Assembly (NCBI RefSeq): GCF_932294415.1 | Contig: NC_065538.1 | Location: 19,486,667-19,550,666, forward strand | Source of the DNA: Quercus robur | Lineage: Eukaryota; Streptophyta; Magnoliopsida; Fagales; Fagaceae | Reading direction: 5' to 3' | Length of the DNA stretch: 64,000 nucleotides | Shown here: in pieces, positions 6,136 through 54,171 of the stretch | How positions within the stretch are numbered: the first letter of the stretch is position 1 | How the letters are laid out: the number at the start of each line of letters is the position of its first letter | Notes under the pieces: model-generated | The model's database searches: none | Told to the model about the DNA's origin: nothing | The model's input: the letters and a program-made list of their open reading frames with translations, nothing else | Position numbers and translations under genes: made by a program

Positions 6136-6563
6136 AATGACGGTTTTAGAAATTTTTCTTAAGGTGTTTTTTAAGAAGCATAAATTATACAATTTAATAA
6201 AAAAAGAAATTCATATATTAACAACAACAACAATAAAAAAAAACATACAAATACATAAAGTTTACAATTGTGCCTTTTACGAGGTTTTCATATTTTGAAA
6301 TCGATGCATAATAGTTTCATTATTAATGCTACAAGCTACATTTCTTTCAATGTACATAACCCAGCAATTATTTATCCACTGAATGTTAAACAAATTATGG
6401 AACAAAATTTAATTTTATTAACATAAAAAAAACTTAGTGTTCTCAAAATTTTTTTTTGAAGGATAGACTAATAAACTTTTTTTTTAAATATTATATATAA
6501 AAAAAAAAATTTCAGGTCAGGGTGGTCCTGGGACCACCCTGCCCTTGAGGTGGCACCGCCCGT
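6136..6563. mobile_element. Non-autonomous hAT-like element
   Basis: The left end (AATGACGGTTTTAGAAATTT) and the right end (GGTGGCACCGCCCG, read inverted) resemble the degenerate GGCGGAGCCA-type ends of a common plant hAT group. The flanks are GATGCAAC on the left (6,128-6,135) and GATGCAGC on the right (6,564-6,571), an 8-bp duplication with one mismatch, as expected for hAT. The interior is AT-rich and non-coding. Confidence 0.5.
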
Positions 6564-8584
6564 GATGCAGCAATAGGAAAAGAAAATATTCCTTTTTTGA
6601 AAAAAAAAAAAGGGTAAAATATTAAATGGTCCAAATGAAATCTGGCTTGCGTTCACGTGTGTGGCAACCCTAGCGACACAAACCGTATGTTAGGGCAAAA
6701 CATGAAAAAGAAAAAAGAAGAACACATCCATAACCCCAAGCTATTCACGAGCAAATGACTCATCCGTGAGAGTGAAATTGAGGTTCTTAAAGTTGGGTAT
6801 CACAAGAAGTTAATAATAAAAACTAAGTTAACGTGTATTTTTTTTTTAGTAATAATCATGATAGGGAGCTTTTGTACATACATCGTCCAACTAGCAAATA
6901 TGTACCCATACACTCGGCCGACATGTTCTCCTCGTCAGACATGTACACCAATCAAGTGATCAAACTATGCCACATGAGTCGTCCGATACCTTGTACTCGT
7001 CTGTCATACATGCCTAAGTGGCTGACTAAACTACCTCAAGAGCAATTGATGATATGAGTCAAATCATCTGTCACTTATAGTTTCAGACGAGTAAAGATAT
7101 ACTTAACTCTTCGAAACTAACTACACATTCTACTTTGTCTACTCACATATAAAAACCGCTACACTAGTCATTTTACGACCCCGCATTAACTAAGTATGGG
7201 GACATTGAACCCAATGATTTTACGACCCCGCATTAACTCACAATTTCCATTACAATGATATTTACATTCCAGCAAATGTTGTTAGTCTAGACTCGTATAT
7301 AAACACCAAGATATCACAATTTTAAAGGTATGCAGAAAACACAATTTTTGAAATTTTACATTTTTAGAATTCTTGAAGATCATTGGTGTTACACCGATGC
7401 ACTCCGTAGGTATTTTTCTCTTCAAGTTTTCTGACGCCGCAGGTTCAGACAATTGACTTATTGACAAAATGGTCAAGTTACAACAAAGTAAAAAATGGAA
7501 ATATTAAAATTTGTGAATTATTATGGGTCTGTTTGGTACGTGTGTTTAAATAATAGTTTTCAGTTTTTTTGGAAATATGTGTGGATGAAAAAGTATATGA
7601 AAATACGTGTAATATTATTTAAAAACTAAAAACATGTAGTATTTAAATACATGTACAAAAAATACTCTACATTTCTTGGTCGATTGACATGCATGGAGAC
7701 AGACAAATTAGCAAAGCAAAGAGACAGGCAACATTTTAATTGCTATATTTGTCAAGGTGGGCTCACCACTCACCGAATTTGCTGGGCCAATATTGGGCTA
7801 GTGAAAAATTGGCATAGTTTCATGGACCTACAGCCTTGACACATGCATGTTGCCCGGTTCTAAACTAGATTCTGCCAGCCTGCCAGGCCATAGCTTTATA
7901 TATCCATGTGCATTTGTAATTTGTGGATTCGACAACTCCACCACTTCCAAAAAAGAAAAAATGTTTTCCACTTTTTTTTTCACATTTTATTGAGTTGTTT
8001 CATTGTAAAATTTGGTCAAACTTAAAAATAGTTTGTGTTGACCGTAAAATTTTTTGTGAAATTTTGTAATACATTTTATCAACAAAAATCTAGTAGAATA
8101 TTTTACAAAAACACACATTGGCTCCTCCCATCCGGTGGCTAGAACCATCAATCCGGTGGCTAGAGCCATTAATGGTGACTATGAGGCATTAATTTTGGTG
8201 ATTTGTGCTCGACAAAATTGTATATCATACAAAGTTGTACTTGAAATTTTTTTACTAAATATATATTTTATTTTACTTTTGAAAACATTTTACAACGAAA
8301 TAAATGGAGAAGTGGAGAAGGTACAACATAAAATACAAAGGTGATATAAAATAAAGTGAAACAAATAGAGCTCTGGAGAAGGTACCCAAAAAAAAAAAAA
8401 ACAAGGGTAATACAAAATAATCCTATCACAAGCCTCTAGAACATGTCTTACTAGTTTTTAATTTTTATAGAGCAGTGGCGGTTGCTACCTCTATTTATGG
8501 CATATGTCATCTCTTAGCTTCCCCAAAAAAGAAATTAAAAGAAAAAAGGATGGCAAAATTAATGTACTTGAAAGCTTGGGATGA
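6564..8584. other. Intergenic DNA
   Basis: No coding region is recognised. Two nearby copies of TTTTACGACCCCGCATTAACT (about 7,171 and 7,213) form a short direct repeat, and GGTGGCTAGA-CCAT-AAT is repeated at 8,133-8,172. No complete transposon could be delimited. Confidence 0.5.
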
Positions 8585-8778: not shown

Positions 8779-8897
8779 TATTTGTAAACTCCAAAAACCA
8801 CATTTTAACCTAGCCAAAAATAAAAACCCATGTCTTATTAAAAAAAAAAGAAGGAAATCCATACATTTCTACTATGTTCTGCTGTCGCCCATACCTC

Positions 8898-9500
8898 GGT
8901 CTAGGGGTGTTCACCAAACCGCAAAAATCACACCAAAACCGCCTGCAAAATGGCATAACTGCACCACACCACATGGTGTAGTGCACTTTGCGGTTTTATA
9001 ATAAGAAAACCACACTGCATTCTCTCTATATATTAATATATTTATTTATTTTTAATATTAAATATATTTTTAATATTATAATAACCCTAGTTTTTTTCAA
9101 AAAAAAAAAAAAGTTTGATAACCTTAGCAAGTATTAACTAGGAAAGTCAGTCAAAAATAAAGAAAAACTAACTTAATAGTTTAAAACTTGGCTCAAAATA
9201 AAGGAAAAAAAAATTAGTTTTGGGCTAGGCAGAAAAAGACCGAAATTTGAAAAATATATCGACTTCAAATCATTCAAACCACATTTTATACACCGCACCG
9301 CATATGTGACTACAAAATGAGGTGCGGTGTGGTTATGGTTTTAGATAAACTCCAAACCGAACCATACTTCACCGCATCACACATGTGACCACAAAAATAA
9401 GGTGTGGTACAGTTATAGTTTTGGCTAAACTGCACCACAAAGTGTGGTGCTAAAAATGGCCCAAAACTGCACCGAACCGCACATCGAACACCCCTTGACC
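8898..9500. mobile_element. hAT-like element with subterminal repeats
   Basis: The ends match as a 15-bp inverted repeat with one difference: GGTCTAGGGGTGTTC on the left and GAACACCCCTTGACC on the right. The AGGGGTGTTC end is typical of a plant hAT group. Many copies of CCGCACCGCA and of its complement TGCGGTGTGG lie inside near both ends, as hAT subterminal transposase-binding repeats do. There is no coding capacity, and no clean 8-bp target duplication is visible. Confidence 0.6.
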
Positions 9501-9754
9501 ACAAGAGAGATATCAAGAAGTGTGGTGTTCCTTCAACAAAGGATGATCAAGTTTTGTTCCAAAAACCAAGCATTGACAAATCTTTTCTTTTCAAGAATGA
9601 ATGAAAGTCCACTTTTTCTTTTCCTTTTCTCTTTGAAGATACAATTTTCAAATATTTTGGCCCATTGCATTTCGGATTCATGCTCAATTGTGTTCACAAC
9701 TTAGTTTCATTATTTTTGCATTCCATATGTTTGGTAAATTGTCCCAATGAATAA

Positions 9755-9894
9755 GGGACCTATTTGGTAACATTGTTTAAATAACAATTTTTGTTATTTA
9801 AATAATACAATACATATTTTTACAACATTTTTTATCAACACATATTTTTACAATACTTAAACAATATTACTAATATAATGTTACCAAACGGGTG
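9755..9894. mobile_element. Small hAT-like MITE
   Basis: The left end CTATTTGGTAACATTGTTTA and the right end, inverted, CCGTTTGGTAACATTATATT are matching inverted repeats. The CGTTTGGTAAC end is common in plant hAT MITEs. The middle is AT-rich and non-coding. No target duplication was found. Confidence 0.4.
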
Positions 9895-10048
9895 ATATCT
9901 TAAGAATTTGGGTTTGGAGCCTATAGACCCATTCTGCCATTCATAAAACTTGCTTCTTCTTTTTGCGTTGTTTACTTGACATCTAAACATCGTTGGCACC
10001 GCCAAGTCACCCAAACAAAGGGATGTTATCATGTTAACGAAAGTTACG

Positions 10049-10057
10049 AAACTCAAC
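10049..10057. repeat. 9-bp target site duplication, left copy
   Basis: AAACTCAAC here is repeated exactly at 24,469-24,477, just outside the other end of the 14.4-kb element. Nine base pairs is the usual duplication size for Mutator-type transposition. Confidence 0.93.
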
Positions 10058-10269
10058 GGCGAAAATGGCCAATTGGCCTTAAAAACCAAACTATCTAGTT
10101 AGTAGGCGAGAATTAGAAACTTATTTGGTTAATAGCATCTCGAGTCTCTAAGGCTCGATTTTGGTCTCAAAATCGAGCCTTTAAGCCTCGATTTTCATGT
10201 GTGATCTGGCCTGCACACGCTGGAATGGTCCAGCTGGAAATCGAGTCTCTTAGACTCGATTTCCACGTG
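10058..10269 (+). repeat. Left terminal inverted repeat of the MULE
   Basis: These 212 bp match 24,257-24,468 in reverse with eight substitutions. The TIR is itself built of short palindromes such as GCTCGATTTT...AAAATCGAGC and AAATCGAGTC...GACTCGATTT. The same AATCGAG/CTCGATT core recurs in the internal array near 18.5-19.3 kb, so it may be the transposase-binding unit (inference). Confidence 0.93.
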
Positions 10270-10618
10270 TATTCCAACCGGAAATCGAGTCTTAGAGACT
10301 CGGTTTCCAATTGGGCTTTTTCAAAATTAACGTTCTCACTCTCTCACCCTCAGTCTTACATCTTCATTTCCCACACTCACAGAACTCTCTCATTCTCTCA
10401 TTTTCTCTCTATCTCTCACACGGCCTCTCACATTCACACACGCTCACACACACAAAGAACCCCGCCGGCGTCGACGAGCAGAGCCCAGCCCAGCCCAGCG
10501 ACGACGCCGACGAGGCTGAGCCCAGCCATCTGCTCCTCTCCTCATCTGATCCTTTATCCTTTTCTCCCTCTCTCTCATTACCACCCCCATACCCATTCAT
10601 TTTTCCTCACCATACCCA

Positions 10619-10845
10619 TACCCATTCCGATTTTGGTTGGTAAGTTATTTATATGATTTTTTGTTTTGATTAATGTGAAATTTTGGGTTTGGATTTGGAT
10701 ACTTAACATCTAGGTTATTTATTTAATTTTCAGTTTTGATTTTTGTGAAATTTGGGTTTGGATTTTGTGGTAGATACTTTATTTAATTTTTATTTTATGA
10801 TTTTTATGAAATTTGGGTTTGGATTTGGTGAGTGCAGATGACATT
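10619..10845 (+). repeat. 227-bp direct repeat, copy 1
   Basis: It runs from TACCCATTCCGATTTTG to GCAGATGACATT and matches 10,880-11,106 base for base apart from a few substitutions, with no length change. A 34-bp spacer separates the copies. Each copy carries one donor (GTAAGT) and one acceptor (GTGCAG). Confidence 0.9.
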
Positions 10846-10879
10846 CAACTCTCTTTGGCTGAAGTCAAATTTGCTTGGT

Positions 10880-11106
10880 TACCCATTCCGATTTTGCTTG
10901 GTAAGTTATTTATTTGATTTTTTGTTTTGATTATTGTGAAATTTTGGGTTTGGATTTGGATACTTAACATTTAGGTTATTTATTTAATTTTCAGTTTTGA
11001 TTTTTGTGAAATTTGGGTTTGGATTTTGTGGTAGATACTTTATTTAATTTTTATGTTATGATTTTTATGAAATTTGGGTTTGGATTTGGTGAGTGCAGAT
11101 GACATT
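10880..11106 (+). repeat. 227-bp direct repeat, copy 2
   Basis: Second copy of the splice-site-bearing segment. The equal length and few differences suggest a recent local duplication inside the MULE. Confidence 0.9.
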
Positions 11107-12668
11107 GTTGCTTGGATAGTGCATATTGTTGCTGCCATCCTTAAGAGTTTCCAAATTTCTGCCTTCAGGTTAGATTGTTATTGCTGATTAGGATTATAGC
11201 TTTTACGAGAGAATTGTATATCTCATTAGGCCCATTTGCTTGTCTATTAGGAGCTTAGAACTTACAAGTTTATATGAAATAGTTATCTCATATATTTATA
11301 GTGCTTGCGTACCATTACAAATTACTAAATTATATGCATATAAAAAAGCACTTAGTAGTTTGCTATTGAAGAAACAAATTACATAGTCTTTTTTCAGTTA
11401 TGTATTTTGGTTGATTGGTTATGATTTAGGTTTTTCGGTTAGGAATGGTTTTGTTTAATTAGTTTAAATAGATGGATTAGATTTAGTTTTGATTAAGGGA
11501 TTTTGGTTAGAAGTTTTGTTTACGTTAGCTGGCTTGGCATAAATTGGTTTTAGGTATCTAGAAATTTCCATATAAGGAAGTAATCTCCCAGCCTTTATCG
11601 GACTATTCCACTCCCAATTAATAGGACACCTCAGAATTCCCATGGACTGATAGCATAGAGAATGGAACATTGGATGTTTCTATATTAAAACTCAAAATAA
11701 AATTTCAAATTAATAGAAGAGCAATTCATTGTAAAAGTTACCAAATGACAATTTCCTTTTTTTATAAAATTAGAAAAATACCCTTAACACTAGGAAAAAA
11801 AAAAAAAAAAAAAAAACCACACCACCTTCCTACCTTCCCTGTCCCACTTCTCCTCACTGCACCACTGCCACCCCCTCCCACACCCCCCCCCCCACCCCAA
11901 AAAAAAATAAAAATAAAAAATACAGAAGCTCCTCCCACCACCGCATACTAACTTTTTGTTGGTTTTAACATAGAAATTTTGTGCAACCTTAGATTTTGTG
12001 CAAACAAATAGTAGAAAAAAAAATTTCAGATCTGAAAAAAAAAATAAATAAATAAAACTAATAATAATGATAAAAAAAATAAAACAATTTATTTTCCTTG
12101 AAAATATTGTGTAAAAAACATTTTTGCCAGGAAAATGCTTTACATAGTAAGAAACGGAACTAGTAATGCAGTTGCTGTCAGTGGAGCCACTCAAGTTTAT
12201 TATTAGTTCCAATGTGTAAGACTACTTTCACCAGGCCATCATTTTTTTATATATATTTTAACAAATTTTTCTTATTGGTATCATTTTTTTTATATATTTT
12301 TTTTAACAAATTACAATTTGTAAATTCATTACCCCACCATATTTGAGCATTGGGTAAATAACATAATCCATCTTAATCTGTCTCATACTGATGAGTGTAT
12401 CAACATGCATGTGTGCATACAACAAAATCATCCAAGACAACATCCTTTTCTTCAGCCTCCTGTACTAGGATAATCTACTCCTTGCGCTTGATTCATGATC
12501 ATATAGCTGTCTAAAAATTATACCAAAATCCATACTTATGTATCTTATAATAATTTCTATTATAAATTATCTAGAAAAACGTATAACTAAGTAGGCTCAT
12601 GGATATATATGAAGTAACATAAACAATATTTAGAGAAAAACAAGAAAAGATACAATTGATTACACTAC
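11107..12668. other. MULE interior, no gene recognised
   Basis: AT-rich DNA. It holds an A run at about 11,795-11,816, a C run at about 11,884-11,895 and a minus-strand frame (11,464-11,670) that I cannot match to any family. Part of it may be flanking DNA captured together with the VPS45 exons. Confidence 0.45.
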
Positions 12669-13512
12669 CTCAAATGCTGCCACTTGACCACCATTACAAG
12701 CCAACTCCTGCTCTGTTTCGGAAACTAACATGAGTTTTCTCTCTTCAACTATCTTGCTCATTTCTGTGACCAATGTCACATGCTTTGAAACATTTCCATG
12801 CATTTTTCTGTACTCAGGGTATTTGTCAACAAATTTGGCCATGTCTTCTGCAGAAATTCAAAATGTTGGAATGATGGAATGTTATACCTCAACCCACCAT
12901 GCTAATTTAGTAACATAATATCTCGTAAATCTGAATTTATCAAGCCTCATACAAACCTATTGTGTGGATGCTCTGGTTACTCTTTGAAATCTGCTGAAAT
13001 TCATCTACCAATCACTTGATATTCATCCCAATATCTCCAAAATTCTCATACATGTTAGCTTTGAAAAAGGCATCTTGTTCTGATGACAACACAACCTCCT
13101 GTGAGTGTGAATTGAACAAAGATCATTTTCTTAGCAACGCAAAACATAAAAATAAATATGCGCACTATAACAGGAAATGCAATGTAACCTTTTGATCCTT
13201 TGGAAGTTTGCCAATGTTTCTCAAATCCACCTTGTTGTCTTGAATACCTATCAATTCATGAACCATTGCCTATGGAACATGATGTGATAAATGAGTTCAA
13301 TAAATGATAAAACCATCCATGTTACATCAAAACAACGAGGCATTTCTCATATAAATGGTAAAATCTGTACTGACAACTCCAAATACCTAATAGGTCCACT
13401 GGTTTAGCAAAGGGGTCACAGGATCATCCCTCCTATCAATTACCAGCAACAATGGGGAAACTTCCATTCGCCTGAAATCAAAAGGCCCACTTTCCTGCTG
13501 GTACATCAGCTT
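12669..13512 (-). pseudogene. VPS45: Captured fragment of VPS45 (SM/Sec1-type vesicle fusion regulator), four exons with introns
   Basis: Minus strand, in order: exon at 13,387-13,512 ([20 protein letters not shown]...[13 protein letters not shown]), 13,189-13,269 (AMVHELIGIQDNKVDLRNIG), 12,957-13,098 (SSEQDAFFKANMYENFGDIG) and 12,669-12,847 (MAKFVDKYPEYRKMHGNVSK...ACNGGQ). These are successive segments from the middle of plant VPS45, which binds syntaxins at the trans-Golgi/endosome. Splice sites line up with the protein, so the copy came from genomic DNA, not cDNA. In-frame stops occur at the end of the first listed exon (Gln codon to TAG) and in the third (Arg codon to TGA), so it cannot make protein. 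It is antisense to the PMD gene within its probable leader intron. Confidence 0.88.
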
Positions 13513-13520
13513 CTGATACA

Positions 13521-14107
13521 TCCCAAAAAAGTATTAAAGTCAGATTTCTATGAACCTAAAATAGTAAAATTCAAAGGAGAAACTGCATCCAGTAAAATTA
13601 ACAATGATATGAAATATCATGAATACACATATCATCAATCAGTTTCTAGGGGAAAAAATATACATGTGTGTGTATGAAATTCTGAAAACAGATCTCCTGG
13701 TGTGTCTATAACATCCAGGATTCAAATCCCCCCTCCCCTATTGTAACTATCAAATTATAAAAAATAAATTACACATTAAAAAAAAAAAAAAAAAATCTGA
13801 AAACAGAATGCTTTAAAATTAATATGAAACTCGGTGATACATATATCATGAACAAGTAACATCTACATGCGTGTGCATTATTCAATATAGGGAAAAAAAT
13901 GGGAAGGTTATGAACACCTAAGTGTTCTCATTGGAGTATAGTAATTCTAGTTAGACCTAAGTGATCTCATTGAGATTATAATCAGCAAGTTTATATAGCT
14001 AGTAAAATATTAAATTATCATATTTTTGTTTTATTTAGCTCAGAAAAAACTTTTGCTATCTATGTTTACTTGCAATGTCAATATTACGTGCTAATTGCTT
14101 ATCATTC
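13521..14107. other. MULE interior between VPS45 fragment and PMD gene
   Basis: AT-rich, with an A run at about 13,777-13,795 and two loosely similar AAGTG-TCTCATT-GA blocks near 13,920 and 13,960. No coding potential is seen. It probably forms the end of the leader intron that closes at 14,115. Confidence 0.45.
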
Positions 14108-14116
14108 TTGTGCAGT

Positions 14117-15964
14117 ATGGATGCTGCAAATGCTGGACGGATTGACCATACACGGCCTGGCCCTATTGACGATTCGGTGTTAAAGTTGCAGTCCACCCAT
14201 CGGTCAGAAGCTATTTGGAATGGACAGGTACAATACAGCAGTAAATATTTATGTAAAATGTACACGTATTTAATTCATACAATATACATGCAGACGTTTG
14301 TCATATGTTAATCCAAGGATTCGTTTTGTGCAGGATCCAGGGGCCCTTACTTGCCGTGGCCGTACTGAAGAGTTCTCAAACCGAGAACCAATGGTAGATG
14401 ATCGAGTTGTTGACATTATTAAGGCATTGGGGTTGGAGGGACTGCTGAGGCAGCCGGGTAGAGAGCTTGACCACGGCCTAATTACAGCCTTAGTGGAGCG
14501 ATGGCAGCCCGAGACTCACACCTTCCACATGCCACATGGTGAGATGACCATTACATTGCAGGATGTGGAGGTGATTCTCGGGCTTCCTATCGATGGTGAC
14601 GCTGTAACAGGGAGCACACAGAAAACTTGGACGGCTGTGTGCGAGGAGTTCCTTGGCTTTCAACCTATAACTCAAGACCAGCATAAGGAACTTCATGGCC
14701 AAAGGATTCTCATCAAACGGCTTTTGGAGCAAGTTGCTAATCCATTGCCGCCTAATGCCGAAGAGGATGAGCTGTATAAGTACGCACGATGCTATATCCT
14801 AGCGCTACTGGGGGACACAATATTCATGGACAAATCTGGCGATAGGGTGCATCTAATGTGGGTGCAGCAGTTGGAAGATCTTCGCAACCCACGAAGGTAC
14901 AGTTGGGGGAGTGCTTGCCTTGCATGGTTGTACCGAGAGCTATGCAGGGCAAGCCATAAGGAAACCAGTCAAATCGGTGGATGCTTACTGTTGGTGCAGT
15001 ATTGGGTATGGGCCAGGTTTCCTTATTTGTGCCCGGCAATTGAGCGTGGCCCACCAGTAGGCGCTTATGGTCCTCCAGCGCGTGGTCCTCTGTACTTGAA
15101 GTAAGTCTCTACTTTATAAGGATTATTTCTTATTGTAGTGATATTATTAATTGCCTAGTTTTTATCTATAACATAATCTTAGTAGTTATATGTGATAACA
15201 TTATAGTTTTAGTCATGACATTATCTTAGTAGGAAAGTTATAAATATTAATCTTTTGTTCTTGACAACACTTGTAGGTGGGCGTGGGTCCCAAACAAGAA
15301 AAACAGGCCTGCCCACATCTTCAGGGATAGGTATCGCCAGCAAATAGCTTCAATGCTGCCAAGCCAGGTATGAAAATGCCTTGTTTAACATGTTAACATG
15401 TTTAGGAACAAGATATATGTTTGGTGAATTTTGAAATATAAACATAGTTGTCTAATATGTTGCGTACTTGTTTTTGGGCTACTGTAGGTGGTGTGGCAGC
15501 CGTACGAAGCCCATTTTGAGGACCTTCCGCCATGGTGCGTTGCAGGGAGGGCTGTGTGGACGGCAACGGTGCCGCTTGTATGTTTCCACCTAGTAGAGAT
15601 ACATACACCGGATCGTGTCGTTCGTCAATTTGGGATGATCCAAGAAATTCCCGAAGATGTTAACACTGACCCCGTGCTTCATGCCATTGATTTGAGGGGG
15701 AAGGTGGGCGTTGATTGGATGCGGAAACATGCCACCCATTTACTAAATTGGGGTAACCGCCTTCAACGGTGTTGTCAAGCAGTGCTTGGTGATATGCCTC
15801 CACAGCATGAGTACTTCGACTGGTTCAAAAGGGTGACTCGGAGGTTCATTGATGTTCCTGGTGCTACATTGACTATACTGGTAACTTCTCCACATCTTGT
15901 ACATTTTACCGTACTCCTTAGCATGAAACAATATTGCATGCATGAAGCAACATTACAAATTTGA
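14117..15964 (+). CDS. Plant mobile domain (PMD) protein carried by the MULE
   Basis: Four exons join in frame: 14,117-14,227, 14,334-15,100, 15,277-15,367 and 15,488-15,964, giving about 481 residues. The start MDAANAGRIDHTRPGP follows an acceptor (TTGTGCAG). Family hallmarks are LEGLLRQPGRELDHGLITAL, ERWQPETHTFHMPHGEMTIT, LQDVEVILGLPIDGDAVTG, WAWVPNKKNRPAHIFRDRYR and VWTATVPLVCFHLVEIHTPD. PMD proteins include MAIN/MAIL1 and the PP7-long type and are known both as host genes acting in silencing and as passengers of transposons; their biochemical activity is unknown. A donor-like GTAACTT at 15,881 could start another intron, so the last 28 residues are doubtful. It is convergent with the transposase gene. 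Confidence 0.85.
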
Positions 15965-17292
15965 TAAAAATCAGTTTTAGAAAATTCGGTAAACATGTTA
16001 CTAATTTATTCAAAAAGAGGGTATAGAAGAGCGGATATGAAGAAATTAGGTTTTATACCATTGGTGCTAAGAATAAGGAAGCATCTGCAACCCGGGAAGT
16101 TATTATCACGTTTGGCTGGTACTTCTCCAAACATTCAACAATAGGAGCAGCTCCTACATATGTACTAGCACCCTTAATACATTAAGACAAAAAGATAGGA
16201 TTCAGATTTACAAAGTAGTAATAAAAAAGAGGGGAATTTCAATAGTGATTAAATAATTCATTAAAAGAAAAGGTTTATTTATGCAAGCATCACATGCTAA
16301 TGAAAAGGTGCCTCAGATTATGTAGCCAGTGTAGTCAAAGGGAAAAAAAAATGAACTTAAGGCACATCCTCGTGAGTTGACAAAAAAGTGCTCACCTGAG
16401 TGAACCAAGGTACTGAACTCTAAATATAAATATTATAAATTGTATGTATCTAATGCTTGTTAGGCATGGTTTGAATTTTTCAAACTTTACAGTAATCTCA
16501 TATATACAATTAAAAAAAAAAAAAAAAAGGAGAGAACCAACTATTAAAGCTAAAAGATTATGATTGAAATCTAAAAAAATATATATATTTCTAAATTGAT
16601 GCATAAAGAAAGAGAGGTGAGAAAGAAGAATGCAAGAGAAAGACACACCCACTAACTTGAATTGAAGTATATAACTATCCTTTTTTGCCAAATTACAAAA
16701 CTGCCTCTCTTTTCCTTTTTTTTCTTTCCTTTTTGCTGAATTTCATTGAGACTCTTGCCTCAAATGCCTTACAGTCTGTTTAAGGTGCTCAGGTGGTTGC
16801 CTACAAGGCAAGAGTCTAGGCGAGTGCCTAGATGGCCTTTGACTACACTGTATGTGGCTAACATGTAACAACAGAAGTTTGAAAAATAAAAAAATTAGGA
16901 GTATACAAGTTTTTTTTTTTTTTTCTTTGAACATCAAATACTAATGAACAGAACATGCAAGACAAGAATCTTACGCCTCCCATTAAATATGATTTCTCGA
17001 GTGAGGATGGTGATCCTGGATACATAATGAAAATAATTGGGTTGTAAGTTGAAAGTCATTGCATCAAAACATAAAGGGAAAGAAACATCTTCATGGTAGA
17101 GCAAACATCTGCATTAATTGGTGCATTAATTAGATGACTCCCTCCCATTTCCTTTTTATTGGTGCATTAATTGCTCTACTTGGCATATGACCAAACCATT
17201 TCACATGACTCCCTCCCATTGCTCTACTTGGCATTAATTGCTCTACAAATTTTTATCAGGACCGTATCTATTTTTGAACTTTGCTCTGTACG
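15965..17292. other. MULE interior, no gene recognised
   Basis: No frame here continues the PMD domain and none resembles a known host protein. Local duplications of GGTGCATTAATT, GACTCCCTCCCATT and GCTCTACTTGGCAT lie at about 17,110-17,245, apparently from repeated slippage. A poly-A/T tract is at 16,910-16,924. Confidence 0.4.
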
Positions 17293-17504
17293 TAGGGTCC
17301 AAGGAAACTAATGAAAAGGCTACGAGGTTCGAAAGTTGGATATCTTGGACTGTTGGACACCAGAAAATCACTATCGATGGACTGAATCTAAGTGTTAAAC
17401 ATTTCTAGGTTTAGACCATCGGTAATGATTTTCTGGAGTCCAACCGTCCAAGATATCCAACTTTTGAACCTCGTCAGCCTTTTCATTAGTTTCCTTGGAC
17501 CCTA
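17293..17504. repeat. 212-bp hairpin (near-perfect inverted repeat)
   Basis: The left arm starts TAGGGTCCAAGGAAACTAAT and the right arm ends ATTAGTTTCCTTGGACCCTA. Arms of roughly 100 bp pair through AAAAGGCT, GTTGGATATCTTGGAC and CCAGAAAATCA, with only a few mismatches and a tiny loop near 17,398. It may be a foldback MITE nested in the MULE or a hairpin-RNA locus. No target duplication is evident. Confidence 0.8.
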
Positions 17505-17583
17505 CCTCTGAGGTCCACGAAAATGGAGGTGTATCATAAGAAGTCGGGTAGGTGTATTCAATCGATAAGTGGACCAAATGGGG

Positions 17584-17706
17584 ACTGTATGCCCGTCAGC
17601 TACTCCAGCTCAGTACATGGTCTTCTTCTTCGGGCTCTATCTGGTTGCTTTGGGGACTGGTGGGATCAAACCTTGTGTTGATCAGTACTGCCTTGATGAT
17701 TTAGGT
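17584..17706 (+). pseudogene. Captured fragment of an NPF (NRT1/PTR) transporter
   Basis: Translation gives [20 protein letters not shown] and then [11 protein letters not shown]. This matches a signature segment of the NPF nitrate/peptide transporter family, where [10 protein letters not shown] ends a membrane helix. After [10 protein letters not shown] a stop follows at once. Only about 40 residues of a protein of roughly 600 are present, so it is a fragment. It starts 80 bp after the hairpin and ends 137 bp before the SirB exon, in the same orientation. Confidence 0.8.
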
Positions 17707-17842
17707 TAGTTTTTAGTGCGTGTAGCGCTGCTGCTTGGTTTTCTTTCCTTTTTGGGTGGACATCATACTATGTTGCTTTTGTCATGGTTTTATTTCTGCG
17801 CAAACGGCTTCTCATTTATTGAAATATCTTTGATATGGGTAG

Positions 17843-18168
17843 GAGCTGGCAGAACCATCGATAAGAGATGCATTTTTTTCTTGCATTCAACAAGGTGCAG
17901 ATCATGTGATTGTAAGCCCATTTTTTCTCTTCCTTGGACGACACTGGCATCAGGTAGCTCGGCTTACTTTCCTCTGGTGCCTTGATTATAGATATACTGT
18001 ACAGAATTGGTGACTAGATTGATTTTTTTTTTTTTTTTAAATAAAAATGCTTTGTGTCACTTTACAGGATATTCTTTCGTTAGCTGCAAAAGAACACCCT
18101 TATGTGTCATATATCGTTACTGCACCTCTTGGTCTGCATGATCTACTTGTGGCAAGGAGCGAGATTGT
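17843..18168 (+). pseudogene. SIRB: Captured fragment of sirohydrochlorin ferrochelatase (SirB), two exons and one intron
   Basis: Exon 17,843-17,953 encodes ELAEPSIRDAFFSCIQQGAD and then HVIVSPFFLFLGRHWHQ. The exon from 18,068 encodes DILSLAAKEHPYVSYIVTAP and then LGLHDLLV. These are adjacent parts of the plastid enzyme that inserts iron into sirohydrochlorin to make siroheme. The intron between them (17,954-18,067) keeps GT and AG, so the source was genomic DNA. The exon edge at 17,843 is preceded by TAG, as at a true acceptor. Homology ends near ARSEIV and a stop. Only about 75 residues remain, including the SPFFLF and HWH region; the rest of the gene is absent. Confidence 0.85.
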
Positions 18169-18431
18169 ATGACAAGGTTTATATTATGAGATTTGTATTA
18201 CTGGAAATGTTTGCTCTGTAGAAATTTGTATTACAAGATTTATATTATGAGATTGTATGCTGGCCATTTACAAAGTTGGACAGTAATGTTCTTGGTGTAT
18301 GTTACTAATAATGTTATATTTAATAATTTCAAAATGCAATACATTTTGTTTTTAATGTACTACATTGTGGTTTTTGATGCTCTGTTTTGCTAGTCTAGAT
18401 AGGTGATTACTGAATACAGCCCTTTGAATCG

Positions 18432-19400
18432 AGTTTCTGGTTTACACCTACAGGAATGCAAAACAAATGAAAAAAAAAAAAAAAAAATTCCCAGTGGAAA
18501 TCGAGTTTTAGAAACTCGATTTCCAGTAAAATATTTACAAAAATGCCACTTCAATTACAGGAATGCAAAAAAATGAAAAAAAAAAAAAAACTTCCCAGTG
18601 GAAATCGAGTTTCTAAAACTCGATTTCCAGTAAAATATTTACAAAACTGCCACTTCAATTACAGGAATGCAAAAAAATGAAAAAAAAAAAAAAAAAAATT
18701 CCCGAGGGAAATCGAGTTTCTAAAACTCGATTTCCAGTAAGATATTTACAAAAATGCCACTTCAATTACAGGAATGCAAAAAAATGAAAAAAAAAAAAAA
18801 AAAACTTCCCAGTGGAAATCGAGTTTTTAAAACTCGATTTCCAGTAAAATATTTACAAAACTGCCACTTCAATTACAGGAATGCAAAAAAATGAAAAAAA
18901 AAAAAAAAAAAATTCCCGAGGGAAATCGAGTTTCTAAAACTCGATTTCCAGTAAGATATTTACAAAAATGCCACTTCAATTACAGGAATGCAAAAAAATG
19001 AAAAAAAAAAAAAAAAAAAACTTCCCGAGGGAAATCGAGTTTCTAAAACTCGATTTCCATTTGGGTGGCATTATCGCAAATAAATGACAGTAAGCAATTT
19101 ACAAAAATGCCACTTCAATGGAAATCGAGTTTTAGAAACTCGATTTCCACTGGGGGATTTTCTGCCAACCCGAGAGCAAAATTTTTTAGGGGGAAGGGTG
19201 AGAGCAAACTTCCCAGTGGAAATCGAGTTTTAGAAACTCGATTTCTGTTGAATGTGGCATTTTCGTAAATTGGTTAGTGTCATTTATTTGCGATAATGCC
19301 ACCCAAATGGAAATCGAGTTTCTAAAACTCGATTTCCACTGGGAAGTAATTTTTTTTTTTTCCCGTTTGTTTTGCAGTCCTGTAGGTGTAAATCAGAATT
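18432..19400. repeat. Array of nine 29-bp palindromes inside a larger inverted repeat
   Basis: Nine palindromes of the form GGAAATCGAG-N9-CTCGATTTCC start at about 18,496, 18,600, 18,707, 18,814, 18,920, 19,030, 19,120, 19,218 and 19,310. The first six recur with a period of 104-110 bp, each unit also holding GGAATGCAAAA, an A run and TGCCACTTCAATTA. The outer edges are inverted copies: GGTTTACACCTACAGGAATG near 18,438 and CCTGTAGGTGTAAATC near 19,380. A second inverted pair (TGGGTGGCATTATCGC and its complement) lies within. The palindrome is the same kind as those in the MULE ends. Confidence 0.9.
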
Positions 19401-20066
19401 ACTTTTGTCCCGTCCCCTACAATAGTAAAAGATATCCAGAACACATCATATGGTCAGCGGTAAAGAAGTAGATACAAGCATAATCACCAGTCAAGGAGAG
19501 AGTACATCAGATGCAAATAATTGGATTCAAACAGTTACTATTCATGGGCATTTTAGTTGCCCTTAGCACACAAAAACAGTCAATACATTATCATCGGTTC
19601 AAACAGTTCAAACAAGGCCGCTGTGGTTGAAGTTGGCAAAGTAGTAGTAGCTACATTGCCAATGCCATATCATTGCATTACAGGCAAAAGCTGCACAACG
19701 CAATTAATGTAACGAGTACAATGGATAACAAATGTTCAATTACCACAATATTTAGCAATAAACAAAATACAAACTAAGTCAATACAACATAGTCTACATA
19801 GTCGTCTAACACTTGTCCATACTAATACAACATACTCTACATAGTCACCTATAACATTTCCATACTGATACAACATAGTCTACATAGAATTTGCTGCACT
19901 TGTCCATACCGAACATAACCACAAGTCCCACGTACAATGCCATTCAAAAATCCAGTCTCCGCTCGCCTGACAACCACGAAGGTACAGTTGTTAGTTTCTG
20001 CAATGTGAAGAACAACAACCAAATGACATTCTGAGCATATTATATAAAAACAGTGACAACACTTGC
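19401..20066. other. Downstream region of the transposase gene
   Basis: No coding region. It holds three loosely repeated blocks of the type CCATACT-ATACAACATA-TCTACATAGTC (about 19,780-19,900). On the minus strand it would supply the 3' UTR of the transposase. Confidence 0.4.
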
Positions 20067-23000
20067 CTAGTTTGCAGCACTACCACTTGTCGAAGCCCCA
20101 TGGGAATTGGGACAGCATCTGCGGTTATGCCCCTCTTGATGACACACTCCACATCGTTGCCTTGGTTGAATCTCCCTCAAGTCCGGATCTTCCCTCCGGC
20201 TTCCCCGTTCTCGTTGTATCCCATCCATTTCATTCCTTAATCTTGACTTCACAGGACGACCTTTGCCCCGCAACAGCTGTGGGTTAGGCACCCATCGTGG
20301 TCCGCGAACATCCCTCCACAATGACTCTGATTTTGGCACCACAAAATGATGTGAATATGTCTGAATGGCGTTGTTCAAACTGTAACATGGGTCAATATAG
20401 CTGGTCGCATCGAGGTGCAGACCTTTAAGAACTTTAATTGCATGTGAACAAGGGATCTTCAAGTTTTGCCACTTCCCACAACCACATGTTTGCTCAATTA
20501 CGTGCACTTCATGACTGTGGTTTCCTCCTCCACCTCTATGATCGTTATACGGGGTAACCACTTGATATACACCAATTTCATGATTAAAATTCCTCAGAGT
20601 GTGTCCTGCAGTTTTCTGCTCATTTTTGTTATAGATCTTCATTGCATAATCACTCCACACCTTACCTTGAGAGAGATCAGAAAGAATTTTTTCATGTCGA
20701 TCGTAGAAATATGCAACAAGTTTGGACCATGTGAACTCAACCATTGCAACAATGGGCAAACCGCGGGCACCTTTAAGTACCCCATTAAAACACTCAGAGA
20801 TATTGGTTGTCATTGCCCCGTAACGTCTTCCACCATCCTGTGACTGGGTCCATTTATCAACATCCTCACTCATTAGATATGTGTAAGGCATATAGCGTAG
20901 GATGTGGCGATCAGTAGGGTCTACACCCCTCAGTAAATTAATCTCGGCCTCCTTAATAGTTTGCATTATGGACGTGAATTTTGCTTCATGAGTTGCATAT
21001 CCAGCTTTCAAGGCCAATGCCTTTAAAGTCGGGTCCTTAAATTTTGTGTTGAAGTTGCTAGCAACATGTCGAAGGCAATATCGATGATATACCTGTTCTC
21101 TTCCGTCCTCACCTATAGGCCACTCTCGAATGGCGCATTTGATACCTTTATGTCGGTCAGAAATAATGCAAATGCCATCCTTAGGTATGACATGCTCTAT
21201 GGAAGTCCTAACACACTCTAAAAACCAACCCCAACTAGGCCCTGACTCCTTGTCTACAACAGCAAAGGCGAGAGGCAAAACCTTTTGGTTAGCATCAGTT
21301 GCCATTGCAATCATCAACACCCCTTTGTATTTACCATACAAATGAGTCCCATCAATACTGATCACTGGCCTGCAATATTTGAATGCAGCAATGCATGGAG
21401 CGAATGCCCAATATACATAGTGAAGTACCGCAATACCTTCGTATGGCCTAGGTATGGTGTGATAGCTGTACTTGGTACCTGAGTCCTGATCCAAGTATGC
21501 CAACAACAATTTCCGCAACCTTTGGTAAGACTCCTCCCAATCCCCAAATATCTTAGCAATTGCCTTTTGTTTTGCGTCCCATACTTTATAGTAAGAAAGC
21601 TCATGATTATACTTAGTACGTATGATCTCCCAGAGCTCATCAATACGAGCAGTGTGATTTTGTCGCAATTTTTCCACAATTTCTGATGCAACAAAATTAG
21701 AATCCATCATTCTACCGTCTCTTTGCAGGCCAAAGGGTATACAAGTGTGTGGACCCACATAAGACGTGACCACCCACAGACCATTAAGTTTATTCTTCTT
21801 GAATGCCCCAACATACCACTTGCAGTTGTCATCAACGCATGCGACGCACAATTTTGTGGTGTTCGACCTCCGGGTTATAAAATTTCTATTATCATTTGCT
21901 GCATATATTGTCAATGCACGTTTCACCGCCGATTTATTTGCAAAAGTCAACCCTTTACAAAAATGCATCCCATCTTGCCAAGTACAAACAAATGGTTCTA
22001 ATAGACGTGAAGGATCAAACATATTTTCCCAAGTATTTGCGTAGAATGAGTCGGCAGGAGGTCTGTAGCCAGTGGTCGTATTTGTATCACGCTGGATGCC
22101 AATATCATCGTCTGCATCATCTTCATCATCGAACTCCATATTTTCCTCTTCAAAATGGGGAACGACTTCATGGTCATCCACATCGTTCTCAAGGTCACCT
22201 CGTTCAATCCTCTCTTCGTACTCATCCACACCATCAATACTTTCACCATCATTCGTAGCATGATCTTCGTCTTCGTCTTCGTCTTCGTCTTCAACATAGT
22301 CTTCGTCTTCAACATAGTCTTCGTCTTCGTCATCCTCCTCTAAATGTGTCTCTTGACAATGGAGGGTTTCACCAGTATTTACAACATGATCTTGAGATGG
22401 GAGCATATAATCTCCCATTGTATACCCTCCCATTGCAGTGCATCCATCATCAAGGGCTGTAAATTGTAAAGACGTAGTTGTTTGTTGCACCATCTCAGTA
22501 TCAACTTCCGCAAGCGGCTCTGAACTTATGTACAACTCAGCAGCATTTACTTGGGGCATTTTCTGGATCCTATTAAACATCATCTTCACATGTTTGTCTT
22601 CTTTAATCGCCATATACCCGTAATTTATCCGTTCATGTAGGACTTCTTGTGGGTAACGATAAATAATCTTGATGTCATACCAAGCAGAGTTCAAATTCAA
22701 TTCGTCCATTATTTTCAACTTCAAATCAATCAACGTCTTCAACTTACGACGTATCATCATGGGGTAGCATTGGATACCCGGCCCTGTAAATGGAAATCCC
22801 TCAATCCCCCCAGGATTGTTAAGAGGTCCACCGTAGTATACATTTATATCAATATTCTTCAGATGTTGTGAACCTATTAAAGAGTCAAGTATAATATGTT
22901 AGCGACATATTTTTTTCTTTCATTTAACCTCAATTACAAAACCTTTTCTATCTACTCAAAGTACAAAAATCACAAATTCTCACCCCACAATTGCATATAC

Positions 23001-23841
23001 TCACCCCACATCACATACAAACACACTCAATCATTATCATTTCGTACTCAAACAAATAAAAAAACTAAAAACAAAACTCACCCCCATTACAAAATTTCAA
23101 CTCAGCTCTAACTAATATAAATAAAAATATCAAACCAAACAACAAGAAAAATAGCCATGATAAAAGCCTAGCAATACAAATATATATCTACAATATTTTT
23201 TACTTGTTATAAAATCCTAGCAAATATATACATTAACTTGCAAAAATAGTCATGATAAAAGCCTAACAATACAAATATATATCTACAATATTTTTTACTT
23301 GTTATAAAATCTTAGCAAATATATACATTAACTTGCAAAAATAGTCGTGATAAAAGCCTAACAATACAAATATATATCTACAATATTTTTTACTTTGTAT
23401 AAATCCTAGCAAATTATATACACTAACTTGCAAAATTAGTCATGATAAAAGCCTAACAATACAAATATATACCTAAATATATTTTTTACTTTGTATAAAA
23501 TCCTAGCAAATATATACACTACCAAATATAACTTCTTACAAACCCCACATTTGCATATTCACATACAAACACACCCAATCATTATCATTTGTTTCCAAAA
23601 TAAAATAAAAAACTAAAAAATCATTAATTATACTAAAAAAAAAATAAAAAACTAAACACACAACTCACCCCATTACAAACTTTCAAATCATTCTATCAAA
23701 AATATAAAAAACAATATCAAACCAAACAAAAAAAATTAATCATGATACACATACCCATAAAAAAACCTAATAATAATATATATATATTATATTTATATAT
23801 GAAACTAACAATTAGAGAGATTGAGAAACCTTACCTGACAT
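20067..23841 (-). CDS. MURA-type Mutator transposase, two exons
   Basis: The large exon (20,067-22,873) is open for over 900 codons. A 7-nt first exon (23,835-23,841, ATGTCAG) joins in frame across a GTAAGG...TAATAG intron, giving MSGSQHLKNIDINVYYGGPL and about 937 residues; the downstream ATG at 22,760 is an alternative. Domains in order: N-terminal region, very acidic stretch (about 180-260), MuDR DNA-binding domain (295-385), MULE DDE domain with Asp in ISIDGTHL (about 510), Asp in IISDRHKG (about 575) and Glu in NISECFNG (about 696), SWIM zinc finger CGC...CSH (799-813), and CCHC knuckle CGVCHQEGHNRRC near the C-terminus. All catalytic residues are present. It would cut the element at its TIRs and insert it, making 9-bp duplications. 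Confidence 0.92.
23147..23527. repeat. 95-bp tandem repeat, four copies, in the transposase intron
   Basis: Copies start at 23,147, 23,242, 23,337 and 23,432, with the key motif AGTCATGATAAAAGCCTAAC followed by TACAAATATATATCTACAAT. Similar AACACAC-CAATCATTATCATTT and AACTCACCCC-ATTACAAA blocks occur on both sides (about 22,980-23,100 and 23,540-23,690), so an outer duplication embraces the inner array. Confidence 0.9.
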
Positions 23842-24256
23842 GAGGATGTGGGGTGACTTGAAGTTTATGCTGAAATGAAAATGAGTGAGAGGAAGGATGT
23901 GGGTCTCTTTTTCAAATTTGATAAATGTTGCTCCTATAAGAACTTAGCAATGAACACAGCAGTCAGGCTCTAACCTTACTTCCTCTAACCGAACAGGAGA
24001 AAGAGAAAAGTAAAAAGCAGCATGTGTGTACCTATAAGCCAGACAACTAAATGTAACTTACAATGAGCACGTGCAAACTGCAAAGGCTGACTCTGGAGCT
24101 GAGTGAGCATGTGCAAACTGCAAAGGCTCATCCTGGAGCTGTGGGACAAGACATGACCAGACATCAGACACGAATAAAGCAACAGAACTGTACAATAAAA
24201 TCGAGTTTGTGAGACTCGTTTTCCAGCTGGAAATCGAGTCTTAGAAACTTGATTTT
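23842..24256 (-). promoter_or_regulatory. Upstream region of the transposase gene
   Basis: Between the first coding exon and the right TIR lies about 415 bp. It holds a direct repeat (GTGCAAACTGCAAAGGCT at about 24,071 and 24,111) and two further AATCGAG/CTCGATTT-type palindromes at 24,190-24,255 that extend the TIR motif inward. This is the likely promoter of the transposase, but no clear TATA box was fixed. Confidence 0.4.
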
Positions 24257-24468
24257 CACGTGGAAATCGAGTCTAAAAGACTCGATTTCCAGCTGGACCG
24301 TTCCACCGTGTGCAGGCCAGATCACACAAGAAAATCGAGGCTTAAATGCTCGATTTTGAGACCAAAATCGAGCCTTAGAGGCTCGAGATGCTATTAACCA
24401 AATAAGTTTCTAATTCTCGCCTACTAACTAGATTGTTTGGTTTTTAAGGCCAGTTGGCCATTTTCGCC
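24257..24468 (-). repeat. Right terminal inverted repeat of the MULE
   Basis: Inverted match to 10,058-10,269, equal in length with about eight substitutions. It ends ...GGCCATTTTCGCC and abuts the target duplication. Confidence 0.93.
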
Positions 24469-24477
24469 AAACTCAAC
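24469..24477. repeat. 9-bp target site duplication, right copy
   Basis: AAACTCAAC, identical to 10,049-10,057. The first codon of the 6-phosphogluconolactonase gene starts 104 bp further on. Confidence 0.93.
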
Positions 24478-24580: not shown

Positions 24581-26652
24581 ATGGCTCTCCCCTTTACTCT
24601 CCACACTAAGCTCTCCATCTCCACCACTTCCGTACGATTGTTCCACGTGCCCATAATCTCACCCAGGGCATCACACAAGCCCTTCGAGGTCAACGCTTAC
24701 ACACTCAGACTCAGAGGCTTGTCTCTCTCTTTGGGGAGCGATAAAAGGTTGAGTCATTGTTGTAGTATTAGTAGTAGTAGAACAAGAGGGTCAATGGCAA
24801 CCAAGGGTGAGGTGAAGAAGGAGGTGTTTGAATCTGCAGAGGATCTGGCTGTGTCTCTCGCTAAGTACACTGCACAGCTGTCTGATAAGTTTTGCAAAGA
24901 GAGAGGAGCTTTCTCTGTCGTTTTATCTGGTGGGTCTCTCATCAATTCCCTCAGGTAACAACAATAAGTTTTTTTTTTTTTTTTTTGGGGTCTTAATTTT
25001 GACTGTCATTGTGTTTGTAAATGTTCTTACTTTTATTGTTTTTTTAGGTTTTTTAATATACCCAGATGATATATGTTTGTTTGGTTGATGGGAAAATGGA
25101 ATGTTGTAGGAAATGAAAACAAAATGGAAAATTGGGTTTAGAACCAAAAATGAACTATTGACTGTGCTTGATAGCAGGGGTTTGGTGAAAAAGAGGGAGA
25201 GAACAGAGAATTGAATCATGGGTTATTCATTATTAAGGACCACATGAAGTAGATGCAATTTTTTTTTTTTTTCCTCAATTTATGATGTTCAATTTTATTG
25301 AAGAGCTCAATTAACAAGTAAAAATGATTGCTTGTTTGTCTTTTACTTTGCGTGGTTTTATTCATTGTCAAAAGGAGGGTTTAAAGATAATTAGTACGGG
25401 GTTCTTAATAATGTGAGTGGGAGCCTTGGTAATTGCCTGATGATGGAATTGCAGGAAACTAGTGGAACCCCCGTACATTGATTCAATTGAATGGTCGAGA
25501 TGGCATATCTTTTGGGCGGATGAGAGAGTGGTGCCAAAGGATCATGAAGACAGTAACTATAAGCTTGCTTATGATGGGTTTCTTTCTAAGGTAGGATTGA
25601 TTGTTGAAAGTTTTCTGATTCCATATTAGTAAGAATTGCTGTAAGATGGTGCATTCAGATTGTGCTGTTCTTTGTGGTATATTTATGCTTTATTTTGAAT
25701 ATTATGTTGTGTTTGGAAAATTATTATAGGAACTTTAAAAACTGTGGATCTAAGACTAGTGGCTGCACTGCTTAGGTGTGGCTTTATTTGGGTAGAAAGC
25801 ATTGCCAGGACAATATTAAGGTCAAAGAGAACACTGGATCAGGCTAGTGAGAAAAGTTGTTAATATATTACGAACAAGTTTATGAGAGCATGGTTTGTTT
25901 ATGACTTTGTTGTGGTTAAATAATTAGTTTGGTTCAGGTAAATAAGCAAAGGTTTGGGTATTATTAAATGATAAAATGATGTCTTATACCATTTCATGAA
26001 GTTTGTAATCATTCTAGATGCTTATCTATGATTTATATGAAAGTGTATTCTTGGTCATATGTAGTTAGAAGGCTGGCTCATCTTCTTTAGTTAACTTTTT
26101 AATAGCAAATTTTATTTTGTCTATGGCTGTTCTGTTTGTGACAGTCTTTAGTTAATTTAAATCTGTTAAAAAAAATTTTCTGGGTAGGTACCAATCCCCC
26201 CTGGCAATGTTTATGCCATCAATGATGCCCTGTCAGCTGAGGGTGCAGCTGAAGATTATGAGACATGTCTCAGACATTTGGTTAAGAGCAATGTTGTAGA
26301 TATATCAGCAGCTAGTGGGTTTCCAAAGTTTGATCTCCAGCTGCTGGGTATGGGCCCAGATGGACATGTGGCTTCTTTATTCCCAGGCCACCCTCTGGTC
26401 AAAGAGAATGAAAAATGGGTCGCCTTCATTAAGGACTCTCCAAAACCACCTCCAGAAAGAATTACTTTTACCTTTCCAGTGATCAACTCATCTGCATATA
26501 TTGCCCTTGTGGTGAATGGTGCTAATAAAGCTGGAGCAGTGCAAAATGCTTTAGGAAATAGTCAAAATTCTGAGAAGCTGCCTGTTGCAATGGTTTCACC
26601 TGAAGGGGAGTTGGCTTGGTTCTTGGATACTGCTGCAGCTTCAAAGCTGTAG
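24581..26652 (+). CDS. PGL3: 6-phosphogluconolactonase, plastid/peroxisome type (PGL3-like)
   Basis: Three exons (24,581-24,954, 25,455-25,590, 26,188-26,652) encode 324 residues, close to the 325 of the Arabidopsis plastid enzyme. It hydrolyses 6-phosphoglucono-lactone, the second step of the oxidative pentose-phosphate pathway. Residues 1-70 are Ser/Arg-rich like a transit peptide. Met72 (MATKGEVKKE) marks where the conserved part starts. Family motifs are FSVVLSGGSL, WHIFWADERVVPKDHEDSNY, GMGPDGHVASLFPGHP and RITFTFPVINSS. The protein ends in SKL, a type-1 peroxisomal signal, as in known dual-targeted PGL3 enzymes. All splice sites are GT-AG. The MULE sits just upstream, so its promoter may be altered. 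Confidence 0.95.
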
Positions 26653-53797: not shown

Positions 53798-54171
53798 CTA
53801 AGTAAACCAAATGACAATAGAAACATTCCTATATCCCTGACTCTTCCTCCACAGTTCGCTATACCCATTTCTCTGCACCATAGTTTCATCACAAAATTGT
53901 CTTTCACAGAAAAAAATTTCTATTCAATCTGTTGGGTATTGAGAAAAAACAAAAGAGTTTGATTTTGTTCATTGAAAATGGTAGTTTTGTATTATGTTGT
54001 TTCAATTGTCTTTCACGATATCATATTTTCAATGTTTATACTCTAGCTGCACAATATCATGTGTACTTCTTAGTTTATTTTGGTATGTTGTTTCAAAATA
54101 GCACACATTAATAAAACTATAAAAAATAAATAATGTGGATGTATCTTTTTTTTTTTTTTTGGCAAGAATGG
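53117..54171. other. Intergenic DNA
   Basis: AT-rich. It contains a CT dinucleotide run (about 53,765-53,793) after a CCCCCTCAGCCTGTACATGG patch. No gene is supported. Confidence 0.45.

Follow-up and report, generated by a model that had tools for sequence, protein, structure and literature searches.

We show that positions 10058–24468 of a 64,000-nucleotide stretch of Quercus robur contig NC_065538.1 (hereafter, the window) constitute one copy of a Mutator-like element (MULE), which we call W, and we consider it likely that W arose recently within an oak lineage of large MULEs with two genes, in which captures of host DNA took place in transposase-bearing lines. W is bounded by 212-bp terminal inverted repeats (TIRs; left, 10058–10269, plus strand; right, 24257–24468, minus strand) that differ from each other at 8 of 212 positions, and by a target-site duplication, AAACTCAAC, whose left (10049–10057) and right (24469–24477) copies are identical over 9 of 9 bp. 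Together with a MULE-type transposase domain, the long TIRs and the 9-bp duplication identify W as a MULE, and a sequence-only reading that had delimited a single element here was correct. As read from the sequences of its members, the layout of the family is a TIR, a rightward gene encoding a plant mobile domain (PMD), a variable zone, a leftward transposase gene, and a second TIR. Host gene fragments lie mostly between the two genes, with the exception of a VPS45 fragment located just upstream of the PMD gene.

W has close relatives at other sites in the genome. A search of the Q. robur genome with the TIR returned 926 candidate places, of which 40 were scored and 25 read; 17 of those read are ends of ten copies (W and E1–E9), and 8 are ends of four 1-kb elements. 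The copies for which both ends were fetched measure 15.3 (E1), 11.7 (E2), 24.3 (E3), 4.5 (E4), 12.8 (E5), and 19.7 kb (E6), and perfect 9-bp duplications flank all seven large or deleted copies for which the two ends are known (W and E1–E6). E1, E2, and E3, each at its own site with its own duplication, differ from W by 19/10569, 29/9728, and 84/10178 substitutions over the blocks compared (0.18–0.83%), which excludes the possibility, raised earlier, of a unique element with a transposase diverged from all relatives. The search proposed by the sequence-only reading thus found further copies that share the transposase and differ in part of their cargo. E7, E8, E9, and a copy on C41, all known from partial sequence, are more diverged from W in their transposases than E1–E3, and a transposase tree places W, E1, E2, and E3 apart from E5–E9 with a support of 89. 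Comparison with E3 indicates that W derives by internal deletion from a larger form of that kind, about 9.9 kb of E3 being absent at a joint at 17098–17153; E4 is also a deletion derivative. Two candidates did not withstand inspection: the supposed left end of E7 at its position 1426 is an internal TIR copy, and E7 is therefore larger, while E10 (C37:43.78 Mb), whose open transposase is 99% identical, is not a complete copy, as it is cut at the equivalent of W 19238, where it adjoins what by eye is LINE (long interspersed nuclear element)-like sequence.

The transposase gene of W is a stop-free frame of 943 codons on the minus strand (20067–22898), uninterrupted as in an autonomous MULE although its start codon is not pinned, and the openness noted earlier stands. 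It is identified by Pfam profiles, homologues, the ratio of nonsynonymous to synonymous substitution rates (dN/dS), and its predicted fold; since the full-length model has a modest predicted local distance difference test score (pLDDT 65.6), the fold evidence is limited to domain-level matches. A genome-wide transposase search (786 Mb, 42 contigs) gave 1830 candidates, of which 48 were scored; 11 of these stand at 95% or more and the rest at 81–84%; the letters A, B, and C given to subfamilies follow rank in this search. Full-length, stop-free matches occur in 23 of the 48 copies and in 4 of the 11 in W's subfamily. W, E2, and E3 (937 codons, open) have no stops in the transposase, every alignment gap in the 9 copies with the full region has a length divisible by three, and W differs from E1 and E2 by 0 and 1 synonymous changes. 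Deeper comparisons have a deficit of nonsynonymous change (W–E8, dN/dS 0.43, p = 0.004 against neutrality; W–E9, 0.41, p = 0.001), and the transposase lineage looks maintained.

The second gene encodes the PMD (14117–15880, plus strand) and is supported by the Pfam profile and a splice model, its first exon and edges being taken from the annotated Q. robur protein model P0045. In W, its exons lie at about 14117–14227, 14331–15100, 15277–15367, and 15488–15880, and the last exon, present at E3 11239–12006, is absent; the region that would hold it is deleted in W, E1, and E2. PMD and transposase are not fused but form separate, convergent genes. Using the best 101 of 151 PMD matches (the remainder being weaker, mostly below 68% identity or short), we found that 41 of the 48 transposase copies have a PMD match on their own contig no more than 30 kb away, convergent in 41 of 41 cases and separated by 2.2–28.9 kb; under random placement, in which five contigs were entered at guessed sizes, the number of such copies averaged 0.38 and never exceeded 3. 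The pairing holds in 10/11, 17/19, and 14/18 copies of three subfamilies, all of which, on this evidence, share the convergent gene pair. Moreover, nonsynonymous and synonymous changes in the PMD number 5 and 8 between W and E5 (p = 0.003), 9 and 7 between W and E6 (p = 0.05), and 3 and 9 between E3 and E5 (p = 0.0002), in pairs that are not mutually independent, so that the gene is apparently under constraint. The sequence-only reading was therefore right that a PMD gene is present, which Pfam and the exon structure bear out, but a view of the gene as captured cargo is rejected: given the convergent pairing and apparent constraint, the PMD is better seen as the element's second gene. Protein P0045, annotated as 'phosphatase 7 long form homolog', matches the PMD of E2 (100% over residues 37–293). 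In the Q. lobata PMD model P0049, the terminal 40 residues are antisense to the transposase, a tail that hints at the same layout in that species.

Two captures are resolved at their junctions. The first is that of VPS45, a block of 11564–13875 (minus strand) that comprises about 190 bp followed by 2.1 kb of VPS45 exons and introns and is recognized by the Pfam Sec1 profile, a match to Vps45 in the PDB (5e-15), and a donor-like locus. It is common to W, E1, E2, and E3, and E4 keeps 198 bp of its left edge. Between the same two junctions, E5, E6, E8, E9, and the C41 copy hold other, mutually alike DNA of 0.73–1.76 kb, and the VPS45 fragment therefore replaced element DNA. The donor-like locus at C38:48.82 Mb is 97.1% identical to W 11757–13880 with gaps counted, differs at 37 of 2103 positions over 11757–13875, and by eye runs on into further VPS45 exons; the 5 kb retrieved there contain no match to the TIR. 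Since W and E3 differ at 12 of 2115 positions in the block, the capture is older than their split, and, with E8 and E9 taken as the deep side of the transposase tree (support 89), it would postdate the split from E5–E9. Outside MULE copies, VPS45 occurs at four places (C38:25.15, 48.82, and 49.37 Mb; C2:26.11 Mb), three of them 96–98% and one 87% identical to the captured piece, hinting that the donor has been duplicated.

The second, of NSF, is seen in E3, where positions 8853–10412 differ from a locus at C5:56.20 Mb by 22 of 1571 substitutions (96.6% identity with gaps), a match that extends across introns. E6 and E7 are continuous at this site, about 48 bp of which E3 has in duplicate, and short matches are present at the switch points. 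All six genomic places with NSF were scored; only the one in E3 belongs to a known copy, and three lie at C5:56.16–56.26 Mb. Because this region has been deleted from W and E1, NSF could have arrived either before or after the W–E3 split. We rejected a nested transposon as the carrier, as no TIR is visible by eye at the edges and the duplication is about 48 bp.

Three further host fragments are present in W, and the earlier identification of VPS45, NPF, and SirB pieces is borne out by profile or PDB matches. An NPF (NRT1/PTR) transporter exon fragment (17569–17706, plus strand) matches NRT1.1/NPF6.3 (4e-4) and SLC15A1 (2e-5) in the PDB and resembles a host-like exon at C3:32661547–32661647 (94% over 101 bp). 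SirB (CbiX) fragments span 17843–18169 on the plus strand, with a Pfam CbiX match (3e-8) for 17843–17953 and a second exon recognized by eye. To these we add an overlooked fourth fragment, from an AtuA/DUF1446 gene (16056–16172, minus strand; Pfam AtuA profile positions 143–180, E = 3e-7), whose N-terminal part is found in E3. Stretches of 9 kb taken from two sister elements contain RPN10-like and JmjC-demethylase-like fragments (a B element on C40) or a dynamin-like fragment (a C element on C39) between PMD and transposase, and each sampled sister element thus has different host fragments. Taken together, the VPS45 and NSF captures and this sister cargo indicate that transposase-bearing lines capture host DNA repeatedly. 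The B-subfamily MULE L050 carries at 6255–7766 a fragment like KDM3-type JmjC histone demethylases, of which IBM1, a plant relative, counters gene silencing, and by eye E3 13898–14047 is a receptor-like kinase-like piece.

These observations point to the mechanism that we consider most likely. The transposase encoded by the right-hand gene, from the element's own or a sister copy, would cut the element at its TIRs and reinsert it with a 9-bp duplication, as the ends, duplications, and constraint suggest. Breaks or stalled forks inside the element would sometimes be mended with a foreign locus as template, whose introns are copied as well, through short matches at the switch points; the interior junctions, short matches, and retained introns are consistent with this view. 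Such copying could either replace element DNA, as with VPS45, or add to it, as with NSF and its ~48-bp duplication in E3, and gap-filling and fork-stalling models with outcomes of this kind are described in PMC8277862. The enlarged element would then move on, whole or with internal deletions, and W may be such a deleted mover, keeping its transposase frame and having lost the last PMD exon. The PMD may be an accessory gene that perhaps counteracts silencing; in the text of PMC5418596 (Ikeda 2017), an anti-silencing helper role for PMDs is those authors' speculation.

Several observations weigh against this account of W and its lineage. In the transposase, E1, E5, and E6 carry one stop each, E7 two, E8 three, and E9 four; the first in-frame ATG of the frame would cut into a predicted PB1-like domain; and dN/dS in the other pairs, which like those above are not independent, ranges from 0.26 to 0.81 (W–E3 0.78, E5–E7 0.81, W–E5 0.60), so that recent branches, whose values are near neutral or weak as evidence, are little informative. 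As for the PMD, 7 of the 48 transposase copies have none nearby, changes between W and E1, E2, or E3 are too few to judge constraint, over the exons compared E3 carries a single stop and E6 two, with stops also in E7, E8, E9, and the C41 copy, and the last exon is unmatched in W, E1, E2, and E5. The NPF and SirB fragments are old, their sources partly identified (94% over 101 bp and 73% over 195 bp, respectively), and W-family copies could have been moved in trans. In this last respect, W might be a silent passenger, moved if at all by the transposases of its sisters, many of which have open frames, and the unplaced start codon fits such a role. We consider this improbable but worth keeping in mind, since the W frame is open over 943 codons and nearly free of synonymous differences from E1 and E2, and the deeper comparisons depart from neutrality.

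The interior of the family raises the alternative that two neighboring MULEs were mobilized as one, trapping host DNA between them without any need for repair synthesis. E3 (10887–10936), E6 (7358), and E7 (1426) contain, in the same flank, a 50-bp copy of the left TIR at 94% identity, placed at the right-hand boundary of the AtuA-bearing block by which the PMD gene is split: the C-terminal PMD exon, about 0.1–0.35 kb after exon 3 in one B and one C element, is about 5 kb off in E3, beyond a block with AtuA, NSF, and this TIR copy. The internal TIR is a hint that part of the middle stems from fusion. However, no right TIR turned up internally at the sensitivity used, and fusion is not the source of VPS45 and NSF, each of which matches another locus and has element DNA to its left and right; as an account of how the large element arose it is unlikely, and slightly more so than the passenger scenario. 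Cargo might instead have been gathered by non-autonomous Pack-MULEs and passed to autonomous copies by recombination, which is likely in this family, given that the left TIR of W is 96% like its own right TIR and the left TIRs of E5 and E6 are only 81% like W's. Of the 40 scored TIR places, 15 were not among the 25 read; among those read, no Pack-MULE carries these fragments. Two of the four other good VPS45 places lack a TIR match over 5 kb of retrieved sequence, and nine of ten strong NPF/SirB places lie in copies with a transposase match (the tenth, at C2:70.7 Mb, was not fetched). One of the C5 NSF places was read by eye over 3.5 kb. We regard this route as quite improbable. Finally, a chance or assembly artefact joining unrelated ends and genes has practically no likelihood and is already refuted by E1–E3, E1 being a copy only 0.18% diverged that shows the layout of W again elsewhere in the genome, between 9-bp duplications of its own.

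With regard to known systems, W resembles Pack-MULEs in having MULE ends and a 9-bp duplication around host fragments with introns (VPS45, NPF, SirB, and AtuA), amplified with the element. Unlike them, it does not lack a transposase: its family has an open transposase frame, and complete transposase-bearing copies measure 11.7–24.3 kb, whereas Pack-TYPE elements are defined as non-autonomous in the relevant section of PMC8903248 and the Pack-MULEs of Jiang 2004 are at most 7 kb according to PMC6431247. The 25 TIR places read (of 926 candidates) included no element that has a gene fragment and lacks a transposase. The earlier proposal that machinery and capture coexist is thus upheld, as VPS45 and NSF sit in full-length-frame lines with PMD, and its extension to W as a possible source of Pack-MULEs is not supported by these places. 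The 1-kb elements S1–S4 (L025–L028) were rejected as Pack-MULEs because their interiors are GC-rich tandem repeats (56–70% GC versus 36% in the window); their TIRs are 96–98% like the left TIR of E6, with perfect 9-bp duplications in S1 and S2, a match over 8 bp in S3, and one in S4 only with the end shifted by one.

Other MULEs also pair a transposase with a further gene. The PMD-MULE fusions of Ikeda 2017 share with W the association of a MULE with a PMD; in the account of PMC5418596, grasses and Amborella have transposases fused with a PMD-C, while the oak PMD is separate, convergent, and multi-exon. KAONASHI and VANDAL MULEs with ULP1 or VANC (PMC13317346, which reviews ULP1-carrying MULEs, and PMC2528002) likewise combine a transposase with a further kept gene, ULP1 being host-derived, but W differs from their description in having long TIRs and several decaying fragments beside the kept gene; a six-frame Pfam scan of 10058–24468 gave no ULP1 match at E up to 0.01. 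The grapevine elements of Benjak 2008 (PMC2528002; hAT, PIF, CACTA, and one Mutator family) carry, like W, a transposase and variable gene pieces with introns, and the general idea of transposase-bearing capturers is therefore not new. For the Mutator family, the relevant sections of PMC2528002 describe one gene source besides ULP1 and no unoccupied sister copies, in contrast to the several fragments of the oak line and two captures whose unoccupied state is preserved. PMC3310237 describes extra TIRs in MULEs, and PMC13042303 reports that in another oak centromeric satellites contain Mutator elements. In the open-licence PMC literature we found no MULE with a separate PMD gene and no such elements in oak, which is no proof of absence.

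Other features of W include tandem 107-bp units (18356–19343; repeat families D1, D2, and D3) with a palindrome that recurs in both TIR regions. A 40-nt unit with the palindrome around AAATCGAGT...ACTCGATTT has 15 occurrences (10224–10307, 18484–19336, and 24184–24357), in both TIR regions and the internal array, and is a candidate transposase-binding motif. A dispersed inverted-repeat unit beside the NPF fragment (17292–17518) has 26 further genomic places at 87–94%, some of them between PMD and transposase of B-subfamily elements (e.g., C40:1912416). To the right of W, the first ATG of a 6-phosphogluconolactonase-like gene (24581–26649; second exon, Pfam 4e-44; first exon below the Pfam cut-off) is 113 bp from the element's end, which places the insertion in the presumed promoter or 5' untranslated region, in agreement with the preference of MULEs for 5' gene regions. 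Elsewhere in the window are two minus-strand retrotransposon remnants with RVT_2 (28662–33234 and 54032–57092), alike by eye, which we take to be Copia-type.

The origin of Pack-MULEs is called perplexing in the part of PMC8277862 that addresses it. In the oak family, unoccupied sister copies, donor-like loci in the same genome, and an NSF capture (in E3) with only 1.4% divergence in substitutions make the order of events and the junctions readable. W belongs to a family in which a MULE has grown to 24 kb while keeping a full-length transposase frame, and in which a plant mobile domain travels with MULEs as a separate gene, a finding that bears on how such elements may evade silencing. In practical terms, the annotated protein P0045 is probably the product of a transposon gene. 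More tentatively, it is conceivable, though we would not yet favor it, that Fagaceae harbor giant two-gene MULEs of about 12–30 kb in which a PMD is selected for anti-silencing and the zone between the genes is still capturing DNA by template switching, such that autonomous elements would themselves be agents of capture.

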